From the NCBI RefSeq assembly GCF_003721245.1, contig NZ_RIZG01000001.1, positions 372,001-436,000 of the forward strand: a stretch of 64,000 bases of DNA, given 5' to 3'. The notes under the pieces are model-generated. The model searched no databases and was not told the DNA's origin. It was given only the letters and a program-made list of their open reading frames with translations. Positions 3,914 through 15,032 of this stretch are shown here, one piece after another (position 1 is the stretch's first letter; every line of letters starts with the position of its first letter). The position numbers and the translations under genes are program-made. The stretch is from Marinomonas hwangdonensis (lineage in GTDB: Bacteria > Pseudomonadota > Gammaproteobacteria > Pseudomonadales > Marinomonadaceae).

Positions 3914-5719
3914 ATGAAACAGTCATCGACACCAACGGATACACCAGCGAGTGGTGGCAATAGTCTCAACATACTGATTCCATATTTACGCCCTTATCGT
4001 CGTCAAATGGTTCTGGCGTTACTGGCTTTAGTGATTACCGCTGCCACCATGCTGAGTTTAGGTAAAGGGGTGCAGTTATTGATTGATGACGGGCTTGCTT
4101 CTGGATCTGAAACAGCATTGACCTATGCTTTGATGGTGTTTTTAGGCTTGGTGTTGTTGCTGGGTGTGGGCAGCTTTTGTCGCTTTTATTTGGTGTCGTG
4201 GATTGGTGAGAGAGTCGTCGCCGACCTTAGGCAGGCGGTGTTTGCTCATTTGTTAAGCCTTTCTCCCTCTTTTTTTGAAGACAACTCTCCCAGTGAAATT
4301 CAATCCCGTATTACCGCAGACACAACGCTTTTGCAAAGCGTGATAGGGTCTTCTTTGTCTATCGCCTTACGCAACAGTTTGATGTTGTTTGGCGGGGTTC
4401 TATTTTTGCTGATAATGCACTTTAAGCTTACCCTCATTTTATTGGCCTGTGTGCCTTTTGTGATTGTCCCTGTGTTGTTCTTTGGTCGACGAGTAAGGCG
4501 CTTGTCCCGTGATAGCCAAGACGAAGTCGCCAACGTAGGGCGATACTTGTCACAAGCGCTGCGACACATCAAGGTAGTACAAGCCTTCAGCCATGAGCAA
4601 CACGATATACAACGTTTTTCTGACACGGTAGAGCGTGCCTTTGATGTCAGCGTGAAGCGTATTCAGCAACGTTCTTGGTTGACTTTGATGGTGATTTTGC
4701 TGTCTATGAGCGGAATAGGCGTCATGTTGTGGTTTGGCGGAAAAGACGTTATTTCCGGTGCCATCAGTGCTGGTGATCTGGCCAGTTTTTTATTTTATTC
4801 TGTGATTGTGGCAGGGTCGTTAGCGGCGATCTCTGAAGTCATGGGGGAACTGCAAAGAGCGGCTGGGGCCGCTGAGCGTATCATGGAATTACTGAGCGCG
4901 CGCAGTGCCGTGGTGAATGGCTCGTTGCCTTTTTCGTTAAAAAATATACAAGCGATTCCTCAAGGTGACGCTCTCATTCAATTTGACCATGTCGAGTTCC
5001 GATACCCCACTCGTCCCGATTACGCGGCGTTAAAAAATCTGACTTTTTCGATTAAACAAGGTGAGATGGTAGCACTGGTTGGGCCATCTGGAGCCGGAAA
5101 ATCGACCTTGTTTGAGCTATTGCTGCGGTTCTATGATCCACAACAAGGGCAGATTACTCTAGCGGGTACCCATATTCGAGAATCCTCTTTAACCGATTTG
5201 CGGTCGTGCTTTGCTTTGGTACCGCAAGAAACCGTGCTGTTTGATCAAACCGTCTATGACAACTTAGGGTATGCCAATCGTCTTGCGCCTCATCATGTCG
5301 TACAGCAGGCGGCAGAACAGGCCAATGCCCATGCCTTCATTACTGAGTTAGATCAGGGTTATGAAACACGGTTAGGAGAAGACGGTGTGCGCTTGTCAGG
5401 GGGACAGAGACAGCGTATTGCCATTGCCCGCGCGATATTAAAAAATGCCCCCATCTTACTGTTAGACGAAGCCACCAGTGCGTTAGATGCCCAGAGTGAG
5501 AGCAAGGTGCAAACCGCACTGGAGCCATTGATGAAGGGCAAAACCACCTTGGTTATTGCCCATCGTCTAGCGACTGTGTTGAACGCAGACCGCATCATTG
5601 TGATGGATCAAGGGGAGATTATTGCTCAAGGCACTCATAACGAGTTACTAGTCAGTTGTACCTTGTATAAGCGGTTAGCGGATTTGCAGTTCCGTTATCA
5701 GGAAACCGTCACGTCTTAG
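3914..5719 (+). CDS. ABC exporter, fused permease and ATPase (ABCB/MsbA-like)
   Basis: A half-transporter of 601 residues: six predicted membrane helices (about residues 30-310), then a nucleotide-binding domain. The ATPase carries Walker A GPSGAGKST, the Q-loop region ALVPQETVLFDQ, signature LSGGQRQRIAIARA, Walker B ILLLDEATSALD and switch His in VIAHRL, so it should be catalytically active as a homodimer. The family exports lipids, peptides or drugs; the substrate is not evident. The reading frame opens at a TTG (3908), but the ATG at 3914 lies 7 bases after AGG and is preferred. The gene is convergent with glgX, and the two stop codons overlap between 5716 and 5719. Confidence 0.93.
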   Translation: MKQSSTPTDTPASGGNSLNILIPYLRPYRRQMVLALLALVITAATMLSLGKGVQLLIDDGLASGSETALTYALMVFLGLVLLLGVGSFCRFYLVSWIGERVVADLRQAVFAHLLSLSPSFFEDNSPSEIQSRITADTTLLQSVIGSSLSIALRNSLMLFGGVLFLLIMHFKLTLILLACVPFVIVPVLFFGRRVRRLSRDSQDEVANVGRYLSQALRHIKVVQAFSHEQHDIQRFSDTVERAFDVSVKRIQQRSWLTLMVILLSMSGIGVMLWFGGKDVISGAISAGDLASFLFYSVIVAGSLAAISEVMGELQRAAGAAERIMELLSARSAVVNGSLPFSLKNIQAIPQGDALIQFDHVEFRYPTRPDYAALKNLTFSIKQGEMVALVGPSGAGKSTLFELLLRFYDPQQGQITLAGTHIRESSLTDLRSCFALVPQETVLFDQTVYDNLGYANRLAPHHVVQQAAEQANAHAFITELDQGYETRLGEDGVRLSGGQRQRIAIARAILKNAPILLLDEATSALDAQSESKVQTALEPLMKGKTTLVIAHRLATVLNADRIIVMDQGEIIAQGTHNELLVSCTLYKRLADLQFRYQETVTS

Positions 5720-7758
5720 TATTTGCCTACAAAGACCCCTCGGTACGCGCACTCTAATGCTTTACCGGCTAGGCTCATGCCTGGTGTCTGGTAAAGCGTT
5801 TCTAGCGGATGACCTTTCGTAGGCAAGGGGACGGTTATCGCTTTGTCAGCGCGATAAAAGACGATCCAAATGTGGCTGGATAGGTCTGCAGTGGTAAGCA
5901 CTAGGCTGAGATAATGTCGTTCGCTTTGTGTCCAATCCGCTTCTGTCATGGGCAAGTTTTGCTCATTGAGCCACTGAATATGGTCAAGATGCGTATGACG
6001 ATACAAGGCGTCGTCTTCTAAATGTATTTCAGCCAATATGGGGTAGGTTTTGCGCAGCGCCAATAATGTCGATATGGTGCTTTGTAGCGATTCTCTCGCA
6101 TGACGCTCTGCAGAACTGAGGTGCTGCCATTGTTGCCAAGTGATCTCGTTGTCCTGGCAATAGGCGTTGTTATTGCCGTGTTGTGTGTGAGATAACTCGT
6201 CGCCGCCCAAAATGTGAGGCGTTCCCTGACTCAACAGCAAGGTTGCCATAAAACACAATTGTTGGTTTAGGCGTCTGGCTTGAATATTTTGATCATCGGT
6301 GTCGCCTTCGACGCCAAAGTTCTGGCTGATATTATCGCCATGGCCGTCACGATTATTTTCCATGTTGGCCAGATTATGGCGCTGGTGGTAAGACACCAAG
6401 TCTCTTAGGGTGTAGCCGTCATGGTAGGTAATGTAATTGACGGATGTAAGGGCACTACGGTGGCCTTTATGAAAATAATCACGGGACCCCATCAGTCGGG
6501 TAGCAAACGCCGCTACCAGATCGTTATCGCCGCGCCAAAAACGTCGCATAGTGTCGCGGTATTGGTCATTGCATTCTAAAAAGCCATTCGGGAATTGTCC
6601 AACTTGGTAGCCGTTGGGACCTATGTCCCAAGGTTCCATAACAAGGCAGGTTTGGCTTAAAACGGGGTCTTGAAGGATAGCTTGCAATAAGGGGGCATTA
6701 GGGCTGAAGTCATGATCAGTTCGGCCTAGGTCAACGCCAAGATCAAAACGGAAACCGTCTACGCCCATGACCTCAACCCAATAGCGCATACTGTCACAAA
6801 TTAAGCGAATACTGGCCCAATGATAGGTGTCGAGGCAGTTTCCACAGCCAGTATAATTCAAATATTGACCATCTTGGTGGCGATAGTAGCGAGCATTGTC
6901 TAGGCCACGAAAGCACACACTGGATTGATTTATTTCACTTTCGGCGGTGTGGTTATAGACCACATCTAAGATGACTTCGAAGCCCGCTGTTTTGAGGCCA
7001 TCTACCATGTGTTGGAATTCAGTGATAGCATCGAGTTTGGCATAAGACGGTTCTGGCGCAAAAAAGCTGACAGGGTTATAGCCCCAGTAATTTGTCAAAG
7101 ACAGGGATTGCAGATGCCGTTCAGTCATAAAGCTAAAACAAGGCATGAGCTGAATGGTGGTAATATTCAGACTTTGCAAATGTTGAATGCCTGCTTCTGA
7201 AATGACCCCTAAATAAGTGCCTTTTAGGTCATCATCAATCGGCAGGTTTTGACTAAAGCCTTTAACATGCAACTCATAAATCGCTCGGCTGGCAGGCTCA
7301 ACCTTGACTCTCGCTGGGCGTGTTAAATCACTTTTCACCGTTCGCACGACCGACTTGGGCACGCAATAAGCCGAATCCACTGAGTGCAACTGACCTTCTT
7401 TCGTCATCGCTGCTTGATCTTGATGCCAAGATATTTTGTCACTCAGTAGTTTAGCGTAAGGGTCGATCAGTAATTTATGCTCATTAAACATCTGTTGTTG
7501 CGCTGGATTGAATTCTCCTTTTGCACGCAAGCCATAGTGTTGGCCTTCGGTTAATCCCAGCACTTCCATGTACCAAACACCTTGACGCTTATTAAGAAAA
7601 GGCAAGGATTCGCGCTCTGTGCCGTCTTGGTCAAAAAGGCACAAATACAACTGATGAGCCTCTTCAGCGACCACAGAAAAATTAACGCCATGATCTGTGA
7701 CGGTGGCACCAAGAGGAAAAGGTGTGCCATTAGAAAGGTGATGTGTTGCTGAGCTCAT
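5716..7758 (-). CDS. glgX: Glycogen debranching protein GlgX (GH13)
   Basis: A 680-residue isoamylase-type enzyme that hydrolyses alpha-1,6 branches of glycogen limit dextrins. An N-terminal CBM48-like domain (LGATVTDHGVNFSVVAEEA) is followed by the GH13 barrel. The catalytic triad is visible: nucleophile Asp339 in GFRFDLGVDLG, acid/base Glu375 in LVMEPWDIG, and Asp447 in TYHDGYTLRD. The GGDELSHTQHGNNNAYCQDN stretch is characteristic of GlgX. Length fits the family. It is the last gene of the operon, starting 39 bases after glgB, with GAGG 5 bases before the ATG. Its stop overlaps that of the convergent ABC exporter, so no terminator fits between the two genes. Confidence 0.95.
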   Translation of the reverse strand: MSSATHHLSNGTPFPLGATVTDHGVNFSVVAEEAHQLYLCLFDQDGTERESLPFLNKRQGVWYMEVLGLTEGQHYGLRAKGEFNPAQQQMFNEHKLLIDPYAKLLSDKISWHQDQAAMTKEGQLHSVDSAYCVPKSVVRTVKSDLTRPARVKVEPASRAIYELHVKGFSQNLPIDDDLKGTYLGVISEAGIQHLQSLNITTIQLMPCFSFMTERHLQSLSLTNYWGYNPVSFFAPEPSYAKLDAITEFQHMVDGLKTAGFEVILDVVYNHTAESEINQSSVCFRGLDNARYYRHQDGQYLNYTGCGNCLDTYHWASIRLICDSMRYWVEVMGVDGFRFDLGVDLGRTDHDFSPNAPLLQAILQDPVLSQTCLVMEPWDIGPNGYQVGQFPNGFLECNDQYRDTMRRFWRGDNDLVAAFATRLMGSRDYFHKGHRSALTSVNYITYHDGYTLRDLVSYHQRHNLANMENNRDGHGDNISQNFGVEGDTDDQNIQARRLNQQLCFMATLLLSQGTPHILGGDELSHTQHGNNNAYCQDNEITWQQWQHLSSAERHARESLQSTISTLLALRKTYPILAEIHLEDDALYRHTHLDHIQWLNEQNLPMTEADWTQSERHYLSLVLTTADLSSHIWIVFYRADKAITVPLPTKGHPLETLYQTPGMSLAGKALECAYRGVFVGKY

Positions 7759-7797: not shown

Positions 7798-9999
7798 TTA
7801 GTTTATGGGTGTCGCAGACCAGATCAGAAGCATACCCGCCAAAGGAGGGATTTCCAGCTCGATGCTCTGTTCACGTCCATGGCTAACAACGGCTTGAGTC
7901 TTGTACGCTTGTGTTTTGACATAACCACTGCCAGTGTACTTCGTCTCATCCGTGTCTAAAATGATTTTGTAGTAGCCTGCTTTAGGTACACCAATTCGAT
8001 AACGTCCATGGGGTGTAGGGGTAAAGTTAACCACAGCGATACTGTGCGCGTCGCTGTTTTTTGCTTTACGAGCGAAGGCCAAAATACTGTTTGCACTGTC
8101 ATCGTAACTGATCCATTCAAAGCCAAGATGAGAGTGATCAAAATGCAAGCTGCTTTCTTCTTGGTAAAGATGGTTCAGATCTTTCGATAAAAGGTGTTGC
8201 GCTTTGTGAAAGTCTGTTTCAAGCAGGTGCCAGTCTAAAGAGCGCTCGTGGCTCCACTCTTGTCCTTGAGCAAATTCATTGCCCATAAAGTTGAGCTTTT
8301 TGCCCGGATGAAAATACATATAAGCCGAGAAAGCGCGTAAATTAGCGAATTTTTGCCACGAGTCTCCCGGCATCTTGGTGATCATAGAGCCTTTGCCATG
8401 CACCACTTCGTCATGGGAAATAGGCAGAACAAACTGCTCATCAAACGCGTAGACCATGCTGAAGCTCAGATCACCTTGATGATGCTGTCGGTAAATGGGG
8501 TCTTTTTTGATATAAGCGAGGGAGTCATTCATCCATCCCATGTTCCACTTAAAACCAAAGCCCAATCCATTCATATAAGTGGGTTTAGACACACCTGGGA
8601 AGGCGGTAGATTCCTCTGCGACAGTGAAGCAGCGCGGATGATTCAAGTATACGGTTTCGTTTAGACGGCGAAGAAAATCAATGGCTTCGTAGTTATGATT
8701 TCCGCCATCTTTATTGGGGATCCATTCACCGTCTTCGCGGGAATAATCTAAGTACAGCATGGAGGCCACCGCATCGACACGCAGGCCGTCGATATGGAAC
8801 TCTTCTAGCCAGTAAACGGCATTACTAATGAGATAATTTACGACATGATCTTTACCAAAATCGTAAATGATGGAATTCCATTCAGGGTGCCAGCCTTTTT
8901 TAGGGTCTGGGTATTCGTATTGCTTTGAGCCATCAAAATTGGCTAAGCCATGGCTGTCGGCAGGGAAATGTGCGGGTACCCAATCCATGATCACACCAAT
9001 ATTGGCTTGGTGCAGGGCATCGACTAAGGCTTTAAAGTCTTCTGGTGAGCCAAAGCGAGAGGTGACAGCGTACAAGCCAACGGGCTGGTAGCCCCAAGAG
9101 CCATCAAAAGGGTATTCCGTAATAGGCAAGAGTTCCACATGGGTGTAGCCCATTTCCACCACATAAGGCACTAACTGGTCTTTTATTTCCGTGTAGGTGA
9201 GGGGCTGGTTGTCGTCTTTTCTTCGCCATGAGCCTAAATGCAATTCATAAATGCTCATGGGTTTTTCATAAATGTCTTCTACGGGGCGTGTGACCCAAGC
9301 GTCATCTTGCCATTGGTGCTTGTTCTCGAAACAAGTGACACTGGCAAAAGAAGGATACTGCTCAATGCGCTGCGCATAAGGGTCGCTGCGGTGAGGCAGT
9401 ATTTCGCCAGCATGAGAGCGAATTTCAAACTTATAACGAGCACCATGCATGACATTAGGAATGAACAAACGCCAGATACCATCGCCGTTACTGGACATGG
9501 GGTGGACTCGTCCATCCCAGGCATTAAAGTCACCGACGACAGCAACAGAGCGTGCTGCAGGCGCATAAACAGCAAACCGAGTGCCTGTTACTGTGACCGA
9601 TTTACTTAGTTGAACATGGGTTTGAATAGCGCCCTGACTTTTGTATAAGCTGGCTTGGTGATGTTCTGGATCTGTAAAAGTGGCCTCAGGGAATTGGTAA
9701 GGATCCACAATGATATACTGGCTATTGTCCTTGTAAGTGATGTCAAGACGATAGTGAAAACGTGAGTGTTCTTTTGGCCACTCAGCATAAAACAAGCCTG
9801 GGTGCTGAGTGGGTTTCATCGTTGACAAGAGCGTATCTGAATCCATGGCGAGGACCCGAATAGACAAGGCTTCCGGCTGCCAAACAGTTAAAGAAAGGCC
9901 TTTTTTCGCCGGCCCTTGTTGCAAACCTAAACAGCCAAAGGGATCGGCGCAGCGTGTTGTCAGTATATCGTTGATGAGGTCGTTTTTTATTATATCCAT
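7798..9999 (-). CDS. glgB: 1,4-alpha-glucan branching enzyme GlgB
   Basis: A 733-residue GH13 branching enzyme that makes alpha-1,6 links in glycogen. It has the long two-module N-terminus of the E. coli type (an N1 domain starting with DPFGCLGLQ, then the CBM48 with VAVVGDFNAWDGRVHPM). Catalytic residues are Asp409 in GLRVDAVASM, Glu462 in TVAEESTAF and the Asp of LPISHDEVVHGKGS, at positions close to those of the E. coli enzyme. FMGNEFAQGQEWSHERSLDW is the usual C-terminal barrel motif. GGAGAAG precedes the ATG. The gene lies 38 bases after the GH15-like gene and 39 before glgX, on the same strand. Confidence 0.96.
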   Translation of the reverse strand: MDIIKNDLINDILTTRCADPFGCLGLQQGPAKKGLSLTVWQPEALSIRVLAMDSDTLLSTMKPTQHPGLFYAEWPKEHSRFHYRLDITYKDNSQYIIVDPYQFPEATFTDPEHHQASLYKSQGAIQTHVQLSKSVTVTGTRFAVYAPAARSVAVVGDFNAWDGRVHPMSSNGDGIWRLFIPNVMHGARYKFEIRSHAGEILPHRSDPYAQRIEQYPSFASVTCFENKHQWQDDAWVTRPVEDIYEKPMSIYELHLGSWRRKDDNQPLTYTEIKDQLVPYVVEMGYTHVELLPITEYPFDGSWGYQPVGLYAVTSRFGSPEDFKALVDALHQANIGVIMDWVPAHFPADSHGLANFDGSKQYEYPDPKKGWHPEWNSIIYDFGKDHVVNYLISNAVYWLEEFHIDGLRVDAVASMLYLDYSREDGEWIPNKDGGNHNYEAIDFLRRLNETVYLNHPRCFTVAEESTAFPGVSKPTYMNGLGFGFKWNMGWMNDSLAYIKKDPIYRQHHQGDLSFSMVYAFDEQFVLPISHDEVVHGKGSMITKMPGDSWQKFANLRAFSAYMYFHPGKKLNFMGNEFAQGQEWSHERSLDWHLLETDFHKAQHLLSKDLNHLYQEESSLHFDHSHLGFEWISYDDSANSILAFARKAKNSDAHSIAVVNFTPTPHGRYRIGVPKAGYYKIILDTDETKYTGSGYVKTQAYKTQAVVSHGREQSIELEIPPLAGMLLIWSATPIN

Positions 10000-10037: not shown

Positions 10038-13000
10038 TTATTGGTGCTGTTGATCGTGAAGCTTACTCACAACACGACGCAAATAATGATTCACTTTATT
10101 GGGTGTGATTTGAGCAAACTCGTCCAATGCCGCTTCAGCTAAGCTTTCTGTGATCTGTTCAGCTTGTTGCTGATTCGCGTGGTCAAGGGCCGCTAGTGAA
10201 ACCAATACCGGCAAGTTGATATCGCGTTCAAAGTGGCTCTGTTTGTCTTGTTGACAAAATTGAATAAAAGCATACAAACCTTCAAATATAAGGCTTTTAT
10301 ACCAGCTAGGGTGAATGTCTGACGTCAAGGTTTCAATTAAGACGGCAAACGTATCTTCACCCGGTGTCATTGAGCTGAGCGCGCGTTTACAATCTAAGAT
10401 CGTATTACTCTGTGGATCACCAAAGACAATGGTATTCACATGGCTTAGGCTTCCCCAAAGTTGCAATAGCATAGATTCAGGCAGTTTAGTGATCATACCC
10501 TGCTCAGAGCGCCAATCAAACCAGTCAACGTCTTTCATCTTACTTTGTGCGTCACTGCTGTTGTGGTAACGCATGGTATTGGTCACGTGAGCAAATTCAT
10601 CGTGTTTCTGTTGCAGTGCTTGCGTTAGCGCCTCATAAAGCTGGCTTGGAGATAGCTGAGCCAAGGTGTCGTAAACGGATTCTTCTTCCTCAGGATCAAA
10701 TTGACGGGCACACAATACGGCAAGATTATGAATCCGAATCGTCCTGATGCCAGAAAAGAATTCAGGATTAACCTTAATGAGCGTCCCTGCAATAGCGATT
10801 AACTCATGACTTATCACAAGACTTGTGGGTGAAGATGACACGCTTTTGAGGTGTTCCAAAATAGCATCTTGGTGCAGTGGCGTACTGATATCCACCTCTG
10901 TCTCTGGATTTTCCCCTATGACTAATAGGCGCTGACGTACGGTAATGTCGGCAATGTAAGTCGCCAAGTCAGTAGACGGCGTTAACAACAAAGAATACAG
11001 CTGTCTTGCACTGCTCCAGTCTTCTAATAACAAAGCTTGATAATAGACACTGCCTAATACTTTAAAGGCGGTTTCAGCGGGTTCCGAATCAGGCATGATT
11101 TCCATCAAGGCACGACGATCTCCCAATGCCATCAAGCAATCAACGGCGTCGCCGAGAGACGGCGTCTGATTTAGCATGTCTAAAAGGCTAGCTGTGTCCG
11201 ACAAGGCAATTTCTGATGAATCGTGTGTACTCGCTTTATCAGACAATGGCCAGAACAGGTCATGAACGGGCAGTTTAATGCCCAGTGAACGATGGCCTAA
11301 TGCACTGATTTTGATGTCGCGTCGATTACCAGATTTAAAGGCATTCTTTGCGGATTGCGGGATAACCCTAAAGTTTTTATGCTCACGCTGCTGTAAGGAG
11401 CGAATAAATTGAAACAGCTCATCGCACCCTTTCATTTCACTGATGGCTTCATCAATGAGAATGGTAAAGACGGCATTGGCTTGGTAATACCAATGTTCAG
11501 CAAGGGTTTTTAGTTCATTGCGAATGTGTGCTTGAAAAAGCGTTGGATCAATTTTGCGATAATCTTTGTTTTCATTCTGGATCCATGACAAACATAAGTA
11601 ACTGTCGTCATTGATGCTGAACGCTTGTGACGTCGCTAAGCTATTAAGCGCACGATCAGGACGCCCTGATAATCCTAGCGCCTCAGATACGCCTAAATAG
11701 CGGTAGGTTTCCACTAGCTGATCCGCGCTGATGGCTTTTAGGGGTTTAATGTCTTCAAGGGTTTGACATAAACAGCCGGCATCCAACAGTTTTTGTTTGA
11801 CCTTATCATTTTGTGCCAAGATCACCATAGAGGTGGTGACCTTGTTGGGTCTATGCTGAATGCGATGCAAGCCGAGGGGGTCAAGGTCATCGGTTTTAAT
11901 CAACTCTTCGTCTAGCATTTTGCCAACTAGGTACAAACTTTGTGCCCACACTAAAGGTAGGTTCTCGTTGGGAAGACGTTTTTGTGATCCAGGGTTTTCT
12001 TTTTCCGCCAAGATATTTTCTTGAGGAACATAGTAGAGCTCAGGTAAAAGCATGTGCCCGTCTTTCTCGACCATTAAAGACTCTAACTTATGACGGTAAA
12101 AGTTGGCACTTTCCCAGTCACGGGCAAATAAACGGTCGATATAGAGATAGGTAAAAAATAGCGGCCACTCTGACTCTATGTGTTCAAAATTGATCAGTTC
12201 ATCGTGTTCATAGTAAATGCGGCTAGGATCTTCTAATTCTGATTGATGACCATCTAATAGAAAACGCTTGCAGCCATACTCGCCACCTAATTTACTGATG
12301 ATTTCTTCACGAGTGCGTTGTGTAAGTTGCTCATCGTTCACCGCAAAGGCAGGGAAACCGATAATGCTGAGAATCGCACTGTCGACTTCTTTTGAACGGG
12401 ATTCTTTTGGCAGCAATGATTGCAGTACAGAGCCAGCTCGGGCAACCGCATCGGCAAAAGAATGCACCACAGCCCATTCTGGGCCATCGTCACCAAACAA
12501 ATTCAATCCATCCATGGCTTCCATGGCGGCTTTTGCCATGCCCACAGAACTGGCGTTTATTTCTGCTTTACCGTTATTGACCTTGTTACCACGCTCCCAA
12601 ATACCGTAATCCGGGGTGCGATAAGTACGAGACACATAGTAGATAAGGTTTTGGATGAAATTAAATTCATCGCGAGAAAAAATGACTTTACTACCGGCTT
12701 TGGTCATTTGGGCCATCATGAGCAAGTAAAAGCTGGTGGCATCAATTTGCAAATGTCCCCATGCATCGTCTGCTACCGCTTCTAAACCCGATTTTGTATC
12801 GTACTTGGCATGCAGCGCGTCTTTGGGATCCAAACTGTGCTTAAACGCTTCGACTTTGTGGGATTGACGCATCATGGCAAACAGTAAGCCCCGCATCATT
12901 TTAATACAGGCAAACTCCAGCTCATGGGTGCGTTTGTCAGGATTTGAAGCACGTTTGTAAGCCAAATAAAGCGCCCAAACCGCTTGAATGCTATAAACGT

Positions 13001-13151
13001 TGTCGCGTACCCAAGCATCGGTGTAATTACCGTGATTATTAATGCTTGTGCTGGCTGGGAATAGGCCAGTAACGGGGTGTTGGCGGGACAAAATAACCGC
13101 TTGGATATGCTGATAAAGAGAATCGAGTTTGTCTTGCGTGTCAGACGCCAT
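10038..13151 (-). CDS. GH15 / phosphorylase-kinase-alpha-like protein
   Basis: A very large protein of 1037 residues. Its N-terminal 450 or so residues match the glycoside hydrolase 15 (glucoamylase-like) fold as found in the alpha and beta subunits of animal phosphorylase kinase: GLFPASTSINNHGNYTDAWV, RDNVYSIQAVWAL, DDAWGHLQIDATSFYLLM and TPDYGIWERGNK. The remaining 550 residues have no motif I recognise and look mainly helical. Whether it hydrolyses glucan or acts as a non-catalytic glycogen-binding regulator cannot be decided here. It is the first gene of an operon with glgB and glgX, which ties it to glycogen turnover. AAAGGATC precedes the ATG. No signal peptide, so it is cytoplasmic. 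Confidence 0.85.
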   Translation of the reverse strand: MASDTQDKLDSLYQHIQAVILSRQHPVTGLFPASTSINNHGNYTDAWVRDNVYSIQAVWALYLAYKRASNPDKRTHELEFACIKMMRGLLFAMMRQSHKVEAFKHSLDPKDALHAKYDTKSGLEAVADDAWGHLQIDATSFYLLMMAQMTKAGSKVIFSRDEFNFIQNLIYYVSRTYRTPDYGIWERGNKVNNGKAEINASSVGMAKAAMEAMDGLNLFGDDGPEWAVVHSFADAVARAGSVLQSLLPKESRSKEVDSAILSIIGFPAFAVNDEQLTQRTREEIISKLGGEYGCKRFLLDGHQSELEDPSRIYYEHDELINFEHIESEWPLFFTYLYIDRLFARDWESANFYRHKLESLMVEKDGHMLLPELYYVPQENILAEKENPGSQKRLPNENLPLVWAQSLYLVGKMLDEELIKTDDLDPLGLHRIQHRPNKVTTSMVILAQNDKVKQKLLDAGCLCQTLEDIKPLKAISADQLVETYRYLGVSEALGLSGRPDRALNSLATSQAFSINDDSYLCLSWIQNENKDYRKIDPTLFQAHIRNELKTLAEHWYYQANAVFTILIDEAISEMKGCDELFQFIRSLQQREHKNFRVIPQSAKNAFKSGNRRDIKISALGHRSLGIKLPVHDLFWPLSDKASTHDSSEIALSDTASLLDMLNQTPSLGDAVDCLMALGDRRALMEIMPDSEPAETAFKVLGSVYYQALLLEDWSSARQLYSLLLTPSTDLATYIADITVRQRLLVIGENPETEVDISTPLHQDAILEHLKSVSSSPTSLVISHELIAIAGTLIKVNPEFFSGIRTIRIHNLAVLCARQFDPEEEESVYDTLAQLSPSQLYEALTQALQQKHDEFAHVTNTMRYHNSSDAQSKMKDVDWFDWRSEQGMITKLPESMLLQLWGSLSHVNTIVFGDPQSNTILDCKRALSSMTPGEDTFAVLIETLTSDIHPSWYKSLIFEGLYAFIQFCQQDKQSHFERDINLPVLVSLAALDHANQQQAEQITESLAEAALDEFAQITPNKVNHYLRRVVSKLHDQQHQ

Positions 13152-13421
13152 GGTTGATCCTTTAGAAAACGCAATGAGTTGTAGAGCGGGCTGAACAATA
13201 CGTCAATCTATAAAATGACAGGTATTCGTTCAAATAAAACCACTATACCCAAACATAGAGGGACTCACCAAGAAGTAAAAGAGAGAAAGTTTCTTCTTTT
13301 TAACTTAATTTTCTAAAATCGGTTAATTGCCGCCAATCCTGAGCTTTAAGCGGACGTTAAGAAGGAATAGCAAGTTTGTTAAGTGAATTTTTACGTTTAA
13401 CGTTGCTTAATTTTGCCACGG

Positions 13422-15032
13422 TTACGTGCTGAACTGATGAACCAGCTGGCGCAGTTGGCGAGCACAGGTTTGTAAGTTCTTAACAGAAGTTTCAATGTCA
13501 GTGGAGTTGTGGCTTGTTTTCTCACTGATGTCAGCAATATTTTGTAAGGTGTGATGGACCGTTTTAGAGGAAGTATGCTGGCGTTCAGCGGCCTCACTAA
13601 TATTGCGGTTAAGTTGTGAGATAGACAGGACGCCATTGGCGATTTCAGAAAATGTGACACCCGCTTCATCGGTTTGCTCGGCGCCGACATTGGCGGTATT
13701 TCGAGCGGATTCCATGACATTCACTGTGGTTACTGTTTGTTGTGTTAATTGATCAATCAAGCCGCCAATTTCAGTCGCGGCAAGTTGCGAACGCTTGGCT
13801 AGCTGTCGTACTTCGTCAGCGACTACAGCAAAGCCTCGACCTTGCTCTCCTGCTCTGGCGGCTTCTATCGCCGCATTGAGAGCCAGCAAGTTGGTTTGGT
13901 CTGCGACCTCCGAAATAATGCTTAACCGTGCGTTTATGTGAGTAACGTCTTCTTGTAGGGTTTGAATTTGCTGTGCGGCATCACCCACTTCAAGAGACAA
14001 TTGTTGGATATCTTGATTGGCTTTGTTCATTACACCAAGGCCTTGTTTGGAGTGTTGGCCAAGCTGCTGAGTGGTGGTGTTGGCTTGTTGGGCAATGGCC
14101 AAGGTGTCTTCCACAGAGGCCATAACGCTTTGCATCAGACTTGCCGCTTCGCTGATATTAGACAGTTGTTTAGTCACACCCTTCGAGGTTTGTTTGGTCG
14201 ACTGTGTGGTTTGTTCGACAATACTGTCTAGTGTTTCACTAGAATGAGCCACATTGCGAACAATCGACTGAAAGTCATTCATCATGCTGTTAAAGGCTTG
14301 CGCCATGGCGCCCATTTCATCTTTTCCTTTAAAATCAACACGTTGAGTCAAATTGCCAGAGTGTTGAACGGATGTCATTGTGGTACACAGTGCGGTGACT
14401 CGATGCGTCACAAGATGAATAATATATAAGGCCGTTCCACCCACAACGAGCGTTAAAATGCACACGAGTATGGCGTAATCTATCAATGCAGTAAGGAAAA
14501 ATTGAATCACTTCGTCCATCGACGCGGTCGCCACCAGGGTGAGGTTCCAAGGTGAAAAGGTGGTAGCACTGGCTATCATGCTGTGCTCCGAACCGTCTTT
14601 GTCGAGGTAGTTAAAGTCTAACCTATGATGGTTTTTTGTCGTCTCGGCTATTGAACGTAAGGCTGATGATAGGGCGCTTGGGATATTTTGGTTTGGGTAA
14701 TGGGCCGGTGCATTTAATAATGTGAGTGGCTTTTGACTGATCACCCAAATACTTTGTTGATCACCGTATTTGAAGTCTGCCAATAAGGACAGTGCCTCTT
14801 GTTTAGCTTGCTCTTGGGTCAGCCCCCCCGACGTCTGCTTTTTATAAGCGGTATTAAGGACAGAGGTGGCGATGTCTAAAATGTCATGAGTTCGATCTTT
14901 TCTGGCTTCTACATGGCTGTTGAATAAAGACGTCAATGACAGAAGAATCAGTGCCGTTGTGCCCATGGACATTAAGCCAATAATTGCCCACAGCTTGTAA
15001 CGAACTTTTATATCATTTATGCGATCCAGCAT
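13422..15032 (-). CDS. Methyl-accepting chemotaxis protein with single Cache domain
   Basis: A chemoreceptor of 536 residues. TM1 lies at about 13-33 ([20 protein letters not shown]). A periplasmic sCache_2-type domain follows (about 35-185), including [20 protein letters not shown] and [19 protein letters not shown]2 is at about 190-212, then HAMP and the signalling domain with [19 protein letters not shown]. sCache_2 domains usually bind small carboxylates or similar ligands; the ligand here is not known. The C-terminus ends in [10 protein letters not shown] with no CheR-tethering pentapeptide. Its gene lies upstream of the glycogen operon on the same strand, but the 270-base gap argues for separate transcription. 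No sigma-28 match was found in the 229 bases upstream. Confidence 0.93.

Follow-up and report, generated by a model that had tools for sequence, protein, structure and literature searches.

What does a protein with the architecture of the animal phosphorylase kinase (PhK) regulatory subunits do in a bacterial glycogen operon? The question is raised by a gene of Marinomonas hwangdonensis located in a 64,000-nt stretch of DNA (assembly GCF_003721245.1, contig NZ_RIZG01000001.1, positions 372,001 to 436,000 of the forward strand), which was analysed as a whole and is called the window here. The gene is an intact open reading frame at 10038-13151 on the minus strand; its ATG start is preceded by an AAAGGA motif, and it codes for 1037 residues. 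Gaps of 38 nt between this gene and glgB and of 39 nt between glgB and glgX bear out an earlier, sequence-only reading of this DNA, which had placed the gene at the head of a glgB-glgX operon (Table 1). A consensus scan revealed no convincing promoter or terminator for the operon, the counts being not above those obtained with shuffled sequences. The order PhK-like gene-glgB-glgX is kept in the Marinomonas loci wherever the contig covers the locus. In loci L005 (glgB, glgX) and L021 (PhK-like gene, glgB, glgX), the reading frames are broken up, which looks like the outcome of assembly or sequencing errors. Upstream of the operon, a chemoreceptor gene (sCache_2, HAMP and MCPsignal domains; 13422-15032 on the minus strand of the window) is found in nearly all Marinomonas loci.

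Table 1. Features of the PhK-like gene, its product and its operon in the window; roles of residues are predicted from alignments.
Feature	Position	Strand	Basis or remark
PhK alpha/beta-like GH15 gene	10038..13151	-	1037 aa, operon gene 1; ORF, Pfam and PDB matches
glgB, 1,4-alpha-glucan branching enzyme	7798..9999	-	Operon gene 2; NF003811, 934.7 bits, cut-off 741
glgX, glycogen debranching enzyme	5716..7758	-	Operon gene 3; TIGR02100, 758 bits, cut-off 641
Likely ribosome-binding site AAAGGA	13158..13163	-	Read from the sequence
D1 glucoamylase-like domain, about residues 8-430	11862..13130	-	PF00723; alignment to human alpha D1
KPBB_C, phosphorylase b kinase C-terminal domain, residues 824-1035	10047..10682	-	PF19292
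H40-G41-N42-Y43 active-site loop	13023..13034	-	Missing from human PhK alpha; alignments
E186, predicted general acid	12594..12596	-	Equivalent to human alpha E185; invariant in 24 homologues; PMC10978961
E371, predicted general base	12039..12041	-	Equivalent to human alpha E371; Lys in human beta
R175, Y177, R178, equivalents of human beta R211, Y213, R214	12618..12629	-	Alignment; PMC10978961
R238, equivalent of human beta R274	12438..12440	-	Alignment

The GH15 fold and the resemblance to PhK alpha and beta that had been proposed for this protein are both confirmed, and the resemblance is stronger than claimed since it covers the C-terminal half as well. The protein matches the Pfam GH15 family (PF00723) with an E-value of 1.3e-70 and 238.9 bits, against a cut-off of 22. 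In the PDB, its sole strong matches are human PhK alpha (E 2.5e-160) and beta (E 1.7e-141), with which it is collinear over the full length. The description of 550 residues with no recognised domain has to be abandoned, because residues 824-1035 correspond to KPBB_C (PF19292, E 3.3e-26, 92.4 bits against a cut-off of 27) and the middle of the protein aligns with the human subunits. Thus, in profile searches the C-terminal half matches the C-terminal family of PhK instead of a carbohydrate-binding family. With a GH15-like D1 domain followed by KPBB_C, collinear with the human subunits, the protein belongs to the PhK alpha/beta (KPBB) family. Both Pfam domains are present in 24/24 bacterial homologues, and human alpha scores 1046 bits against the profile of these homologues, in a match that extends into the C-terminal domains. 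When D1-D2 is compared with human alpha, 43% of the residues are identical in the window protein, and other homologues from bacteria share up to 52%.

Relatives detected in one scan of the collection lie on 20 contigs of Marinomonas or Marinomonas-like bacteria, at 76-87% identity, except for one Sulfuricurvum sequence at 40%. Among the genomes sampled, KPBB_C was detected in 14 of the 369 from the class, in 7 of the 399 from the phylum and in 2 of the 200 from the phylum to which the Sulfuricurvum MAG belongs; Synechococcus elongatus, which served as a control genome, also carries it. The viral contigs and plasmids searched contained no relatives. The tree, which includes two eukaryotic rows only, splits all bacterial sequences from the human alpha/beta pair with a support of 96/98. 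A recent transfer from animals was considered, and that tree, with its two eukaryotic rows, shows no sign of it. We found no earlier description of these bacterial PhK-like proteins in the literature searched.

Is the GH15 site of the protein preserved? An AlphaFold2 model built from a 13-row alignment had a mean pLDDT of 47 and was discarded; because this predicted structure is too poor, the roles given to active-site residues are based on sequence alignments with families whose structures have been solved. A PDB profile search with a wide bacterial alignment matched none of the solved GH15 enzymes and found only PhK, and the residues were therefore mapped through ordinary GH15 proteins. Seven of these, used as yardsticks, have in common an invariant YxxxWxRD motif, a Q-x-D, a W-E and the base Glu, and these invariants have counterparts that are themselves invariant in all 24 bacterial homologues. 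In a profile-profile comparison, hhalign joins the bacterial PhK-like family to the ordinary GH15 family with a probability of 96.9. The site of the window protein thus has a complete set of residues, comprising Y43, W47, R49, D50, Q135, D137, W185, E186 and E371. The first eight are invariant among the bacterial PhK-like proteins, and the two catalytic acids, E186 and E371, are intact here and invariant in 24/24 diverse homologues. Y43 sits at W-4, with the same spacing as Tyr48 of Aspergillus awamori glucoamylase, a residue located at the catalytic site. A profile score above the cut-off, the acid and base Glu residues and the YxxxWxRD subsite motif all place the protein in GH15. It shares the catalytic-site motifs and the acid-base pair with GH15 glucoamylases and glucodextranases of known structure (1lf6, 1ug9, 1gai). 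However, ordinary GH15 enzymes are devoid of the D2-D5/KPBB_C part, and the solved ones have diverged too far to be matched directly by profile.

The presence of both acids is not in itself proof of catalysis, as human alpha also retains its Glu pair but is inactive (PMC10978961). The GH15 domains of both human subunits are reported to be inactive, and no activity of alpha was seen on maltose, isomaltose or glycogen despite its catalytic pair, E185 and E371 (PMC10978961), which aligns with E186 and E371 of the window protein. Human PHKA1 (PDB 8jfk chain M) is collinear with the bacterial protein over its full length and has both catalytic Glu at equivalent positions, but it lacks the HGxY loop that the bacterial protein possesses. 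Human alpha is six residues shorter in the Tyr-loop region (PASYDQKDAWVRD against PASTSINNHGNYTDAWVRD) and has a Gln at the position of Y43. The loss of this Tyr fits the reported inactivity of human alpha, which we propose as a hypothesis because a Tyr two residues further upstream might replace it spatially. PHKA1 also binds the gamma kinase, ends in a farnesylated CaaX motif and contains a long insertion ahead of D5, sequence features that are absent from the bacterial protein. The C-terminus of the latter (...RRVVSKLHDQQHQ) has no CaaX farnesylation motif. K588 and Y593, through which alpha contacts gamma, are replaced by S585 and E590 in the window protein, with no conservation in the 24 homologues, and no gamma-like kinase gene was found next to the PhK-like gene. 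As for human PHKB (PDB 8jfk chain B), its architecture is the same but the base E371 is replaced by Lys, and W47, R49 and D137, which the bacterial protein keeps, are lost. Overall, D1 residues invariant in bacteria are altered at 15 of 118 positions in human alpha and at 35 in human beta, including W47, R49, D137 and E371.

Outside Marinomonas, a glucokinase gene adjoins the PhK-like gene in 9 of 20 loci, and these nine represent seven families and two phyla. It is on the same strand in L022, L065, L066, L071, L072, L073, L075 and L076 and divergent in L078, and the two genes overlap by 4 nt in L065 and L066. The identity of the glucokinase was established by NCBIfam for L065, L066, L072, L073, L075 and L078; the L022 neighbour was confirmed as a glucokinase, and those of L076 and of L071, which is truncated at the end of its contig, were assigned by BLAST to the L022 protein. 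The glucokinase-linked loci are spread over several branches of the tree, with L073, L075 and L076 belonging to one genus. Links to glycogen genes are also found, with the order glgB-glgX-malQ-PhK-like gene in L034 and a glgX gene about 1.5 kb from the PhK-like gene in L077. Of note, L032 (4341-4757) and L033 (4799-5143) have in common a small open reading frame upstream of the PhK-like gene, which contains MSEKTTRNRRIRKKLYLDEFAI....

As the sequence-only reading had pointed out, glgP, glgA and glgC are not beside the operon; all three are present elsewhere in the genome. The single glgP gene is on contig C19 (L031, G000:C19, 7461-9941), alone between unrelated genes. The glgA gene is on contig C24, with a divergent glgC gene identified by eye from the sequence, and a glucokinase gene is on C1. 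Three other Marinomonas genomes (G154, G400 and G401) yielded no phosphorylase, a distribution that looks like patchy gain or loss. Furthermore, the window genome and three other Marinomonas lack malQ. It is present in 5 of the 9 genomes tested, these five being non-Marinomonas genomes with the PhK-like gene, and the idea that this gene always compensates for a missing malQ was rejected as a general rule on that count. The phosphorylase family PF00343, which the same search detects in 12 of 14 control genomes, has no match at all in 6 of the 24 genomes with the PhK-like gene. These six are G154, a Marinomonas genome in one contig with 100% completeness, M. polaris, M. sargassi, G182, G285 and G888; since some of the assemblies are fragmented, it is G154 and G182 that carry the argument for the absence of phosphorylase. 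In six more genomes (G749, G753, G856, G946, G399 and G592), the PF00343 matches are only weak and partial, and they probably correspond to alpha-glucan phosphorylases of the divergent kind or to glycosyltransferases of other sorts.

The sequence-only reading had left the choice between a glycogen-bound regulator or scaffold and an unusual glucoamylase. We favour the latter because the GH15 site is complete, glucokinase is a frequent neighbour and some carrier genomes are without phosphorylase. The window protein is probably a cytosolic glucoamylase-type enzyme of family GH15 that serves in glycogen breakdown and has the architecture of PhK alpha and beta. Using E186 as the acid and E371 as the base, it would cleave single glucose units off the outer chains of glycogen by an inverting exo-mechanism, and the maltodextrins freed by GlgX would be a further substrate. 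The released glucose would then enter glycolysis via glucokinase. Several genomes carrying the gene lack GlgP and MalQ, and such an enzyme could take their place. This replacement would not be universal, as the window genome has glgP and five non-Marinomonas genomes have malQ. We infer this activity and this substrate from comparisons of genes and proteins, as we do the ADP control and the direction of evolution discussed below.

Alternatively, the protein might be catalytically active as a GH15 enzyme but act on a different substrate, for instance isomaltooligosaccharides, trehalose or a glucosylated metabolite. GH15 enzymes of solved structure include glucodextranase besides glucoamylase, the best NCBIfam match of the window protein is an archaeal trehalase, although far below its cut-off, and a link with glucokinase would suit any enzyme that releases glucose. 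However, glycogen is indicated by the operons in which the gene accompanies glgB, glgX and malQ, and we regard a different substrate as rather unlikely. Another proposal is that of a silent, glycogen-binding regulator or scaffold that would control GlgB and GlgX in the same manner as the animal subunits alpha and beta act on the kinase subunit. It would agree with the shared operon and with the architecture shared with human alpha and beta, for which inactive GH15 domains have been reported, in alpha even with both catalytic Glu kept (PMC10978961). Yet the entire GH15 site is invariant in the 24 homologues, including the loop lost in human alpha, and many bacteria pair the gene with glucokinase and not with glgB/glgX, a pairing that would be accounted for by a hydrolase but not by a scaffold; a silent role for the protein is quite improbable in our opinion. 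Regulation of glycogen phosphorylase, as in animals, is suggested by the homology to PhK alpha and beta and by the presence of glgP in the window genome, but we consider it extremely unlikely: the 6 of 24 carrier genomes without a PF00343 match contradict it as a general function, the window-genome glgP is far off and its N-terminus lacks the animal phosphorylation motif, the only two protein-kinase matches of that genome are weak, partial and not near the PhK-like operon, and a phosphorylase substrate was not found together with a dedicated kinase in one genome. The better of the two kinase matches (PF00069, E 2e-13) is in a 415-aa protein with a leucine-rich-repeat-like N-terminus (L041, 6595-7842).

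The glucoamylase-type enzyme that we favour may have a second site. In human beta, the diphosphate of ADP is held by R211, Y213, R214 and R274 (PMC10978961). The window protein has identical residues at all four positions (R175, Y177, R178 and R238), and they are kept in 21, 23, 16 and 21 of the 24 bacterial homologues, respectively; human alpha has A, Y, K and H. Random draws of three Arg and one Tyr of beta gave equal bacterial conservation in 1.75% of cases (resampling P 0.018). This conservation is suggestive of a nucleotide site, but the residues could be kept for structure, and control of the bacterial protein by ADP is possible. We infer that animal alpha and beta descend from an enzyme of this kind, alpha having lost the Tyr loop and beta the base. 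More tentatively, and with some doubt, one may imagine an ADP-activated glucoamylase that senses the energy charge, combining a working GH15 site and a PhK-beta-type nucleotide site in one polypeptide. Animal alpha and beta would be diverged copies of it, the first with its acids kept and the second with its ADP site kept, and the pair would then have been recruited to hold the kinase.

The role of the glucoamylase-like domains of PhK, and the inactivity of alpha in spite of its two acids, are left open by the authors of the 2024 cryo-EM study (PMC10978961). As a homologue with the same architecture and an intact site, encoded in glucokinase or glgB-glgX operons, the bacterial protein offers a simple system in which to address the function of the ancestral domain. 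The contribution of the HGxY loop could be tested in it, as could the idea that the ADP site predates the kinase complex. For the bacteria themselves, the PhK-like enzyme suggests a route of glycogen breakdown that would require neither phosphorylase nor MalQ.
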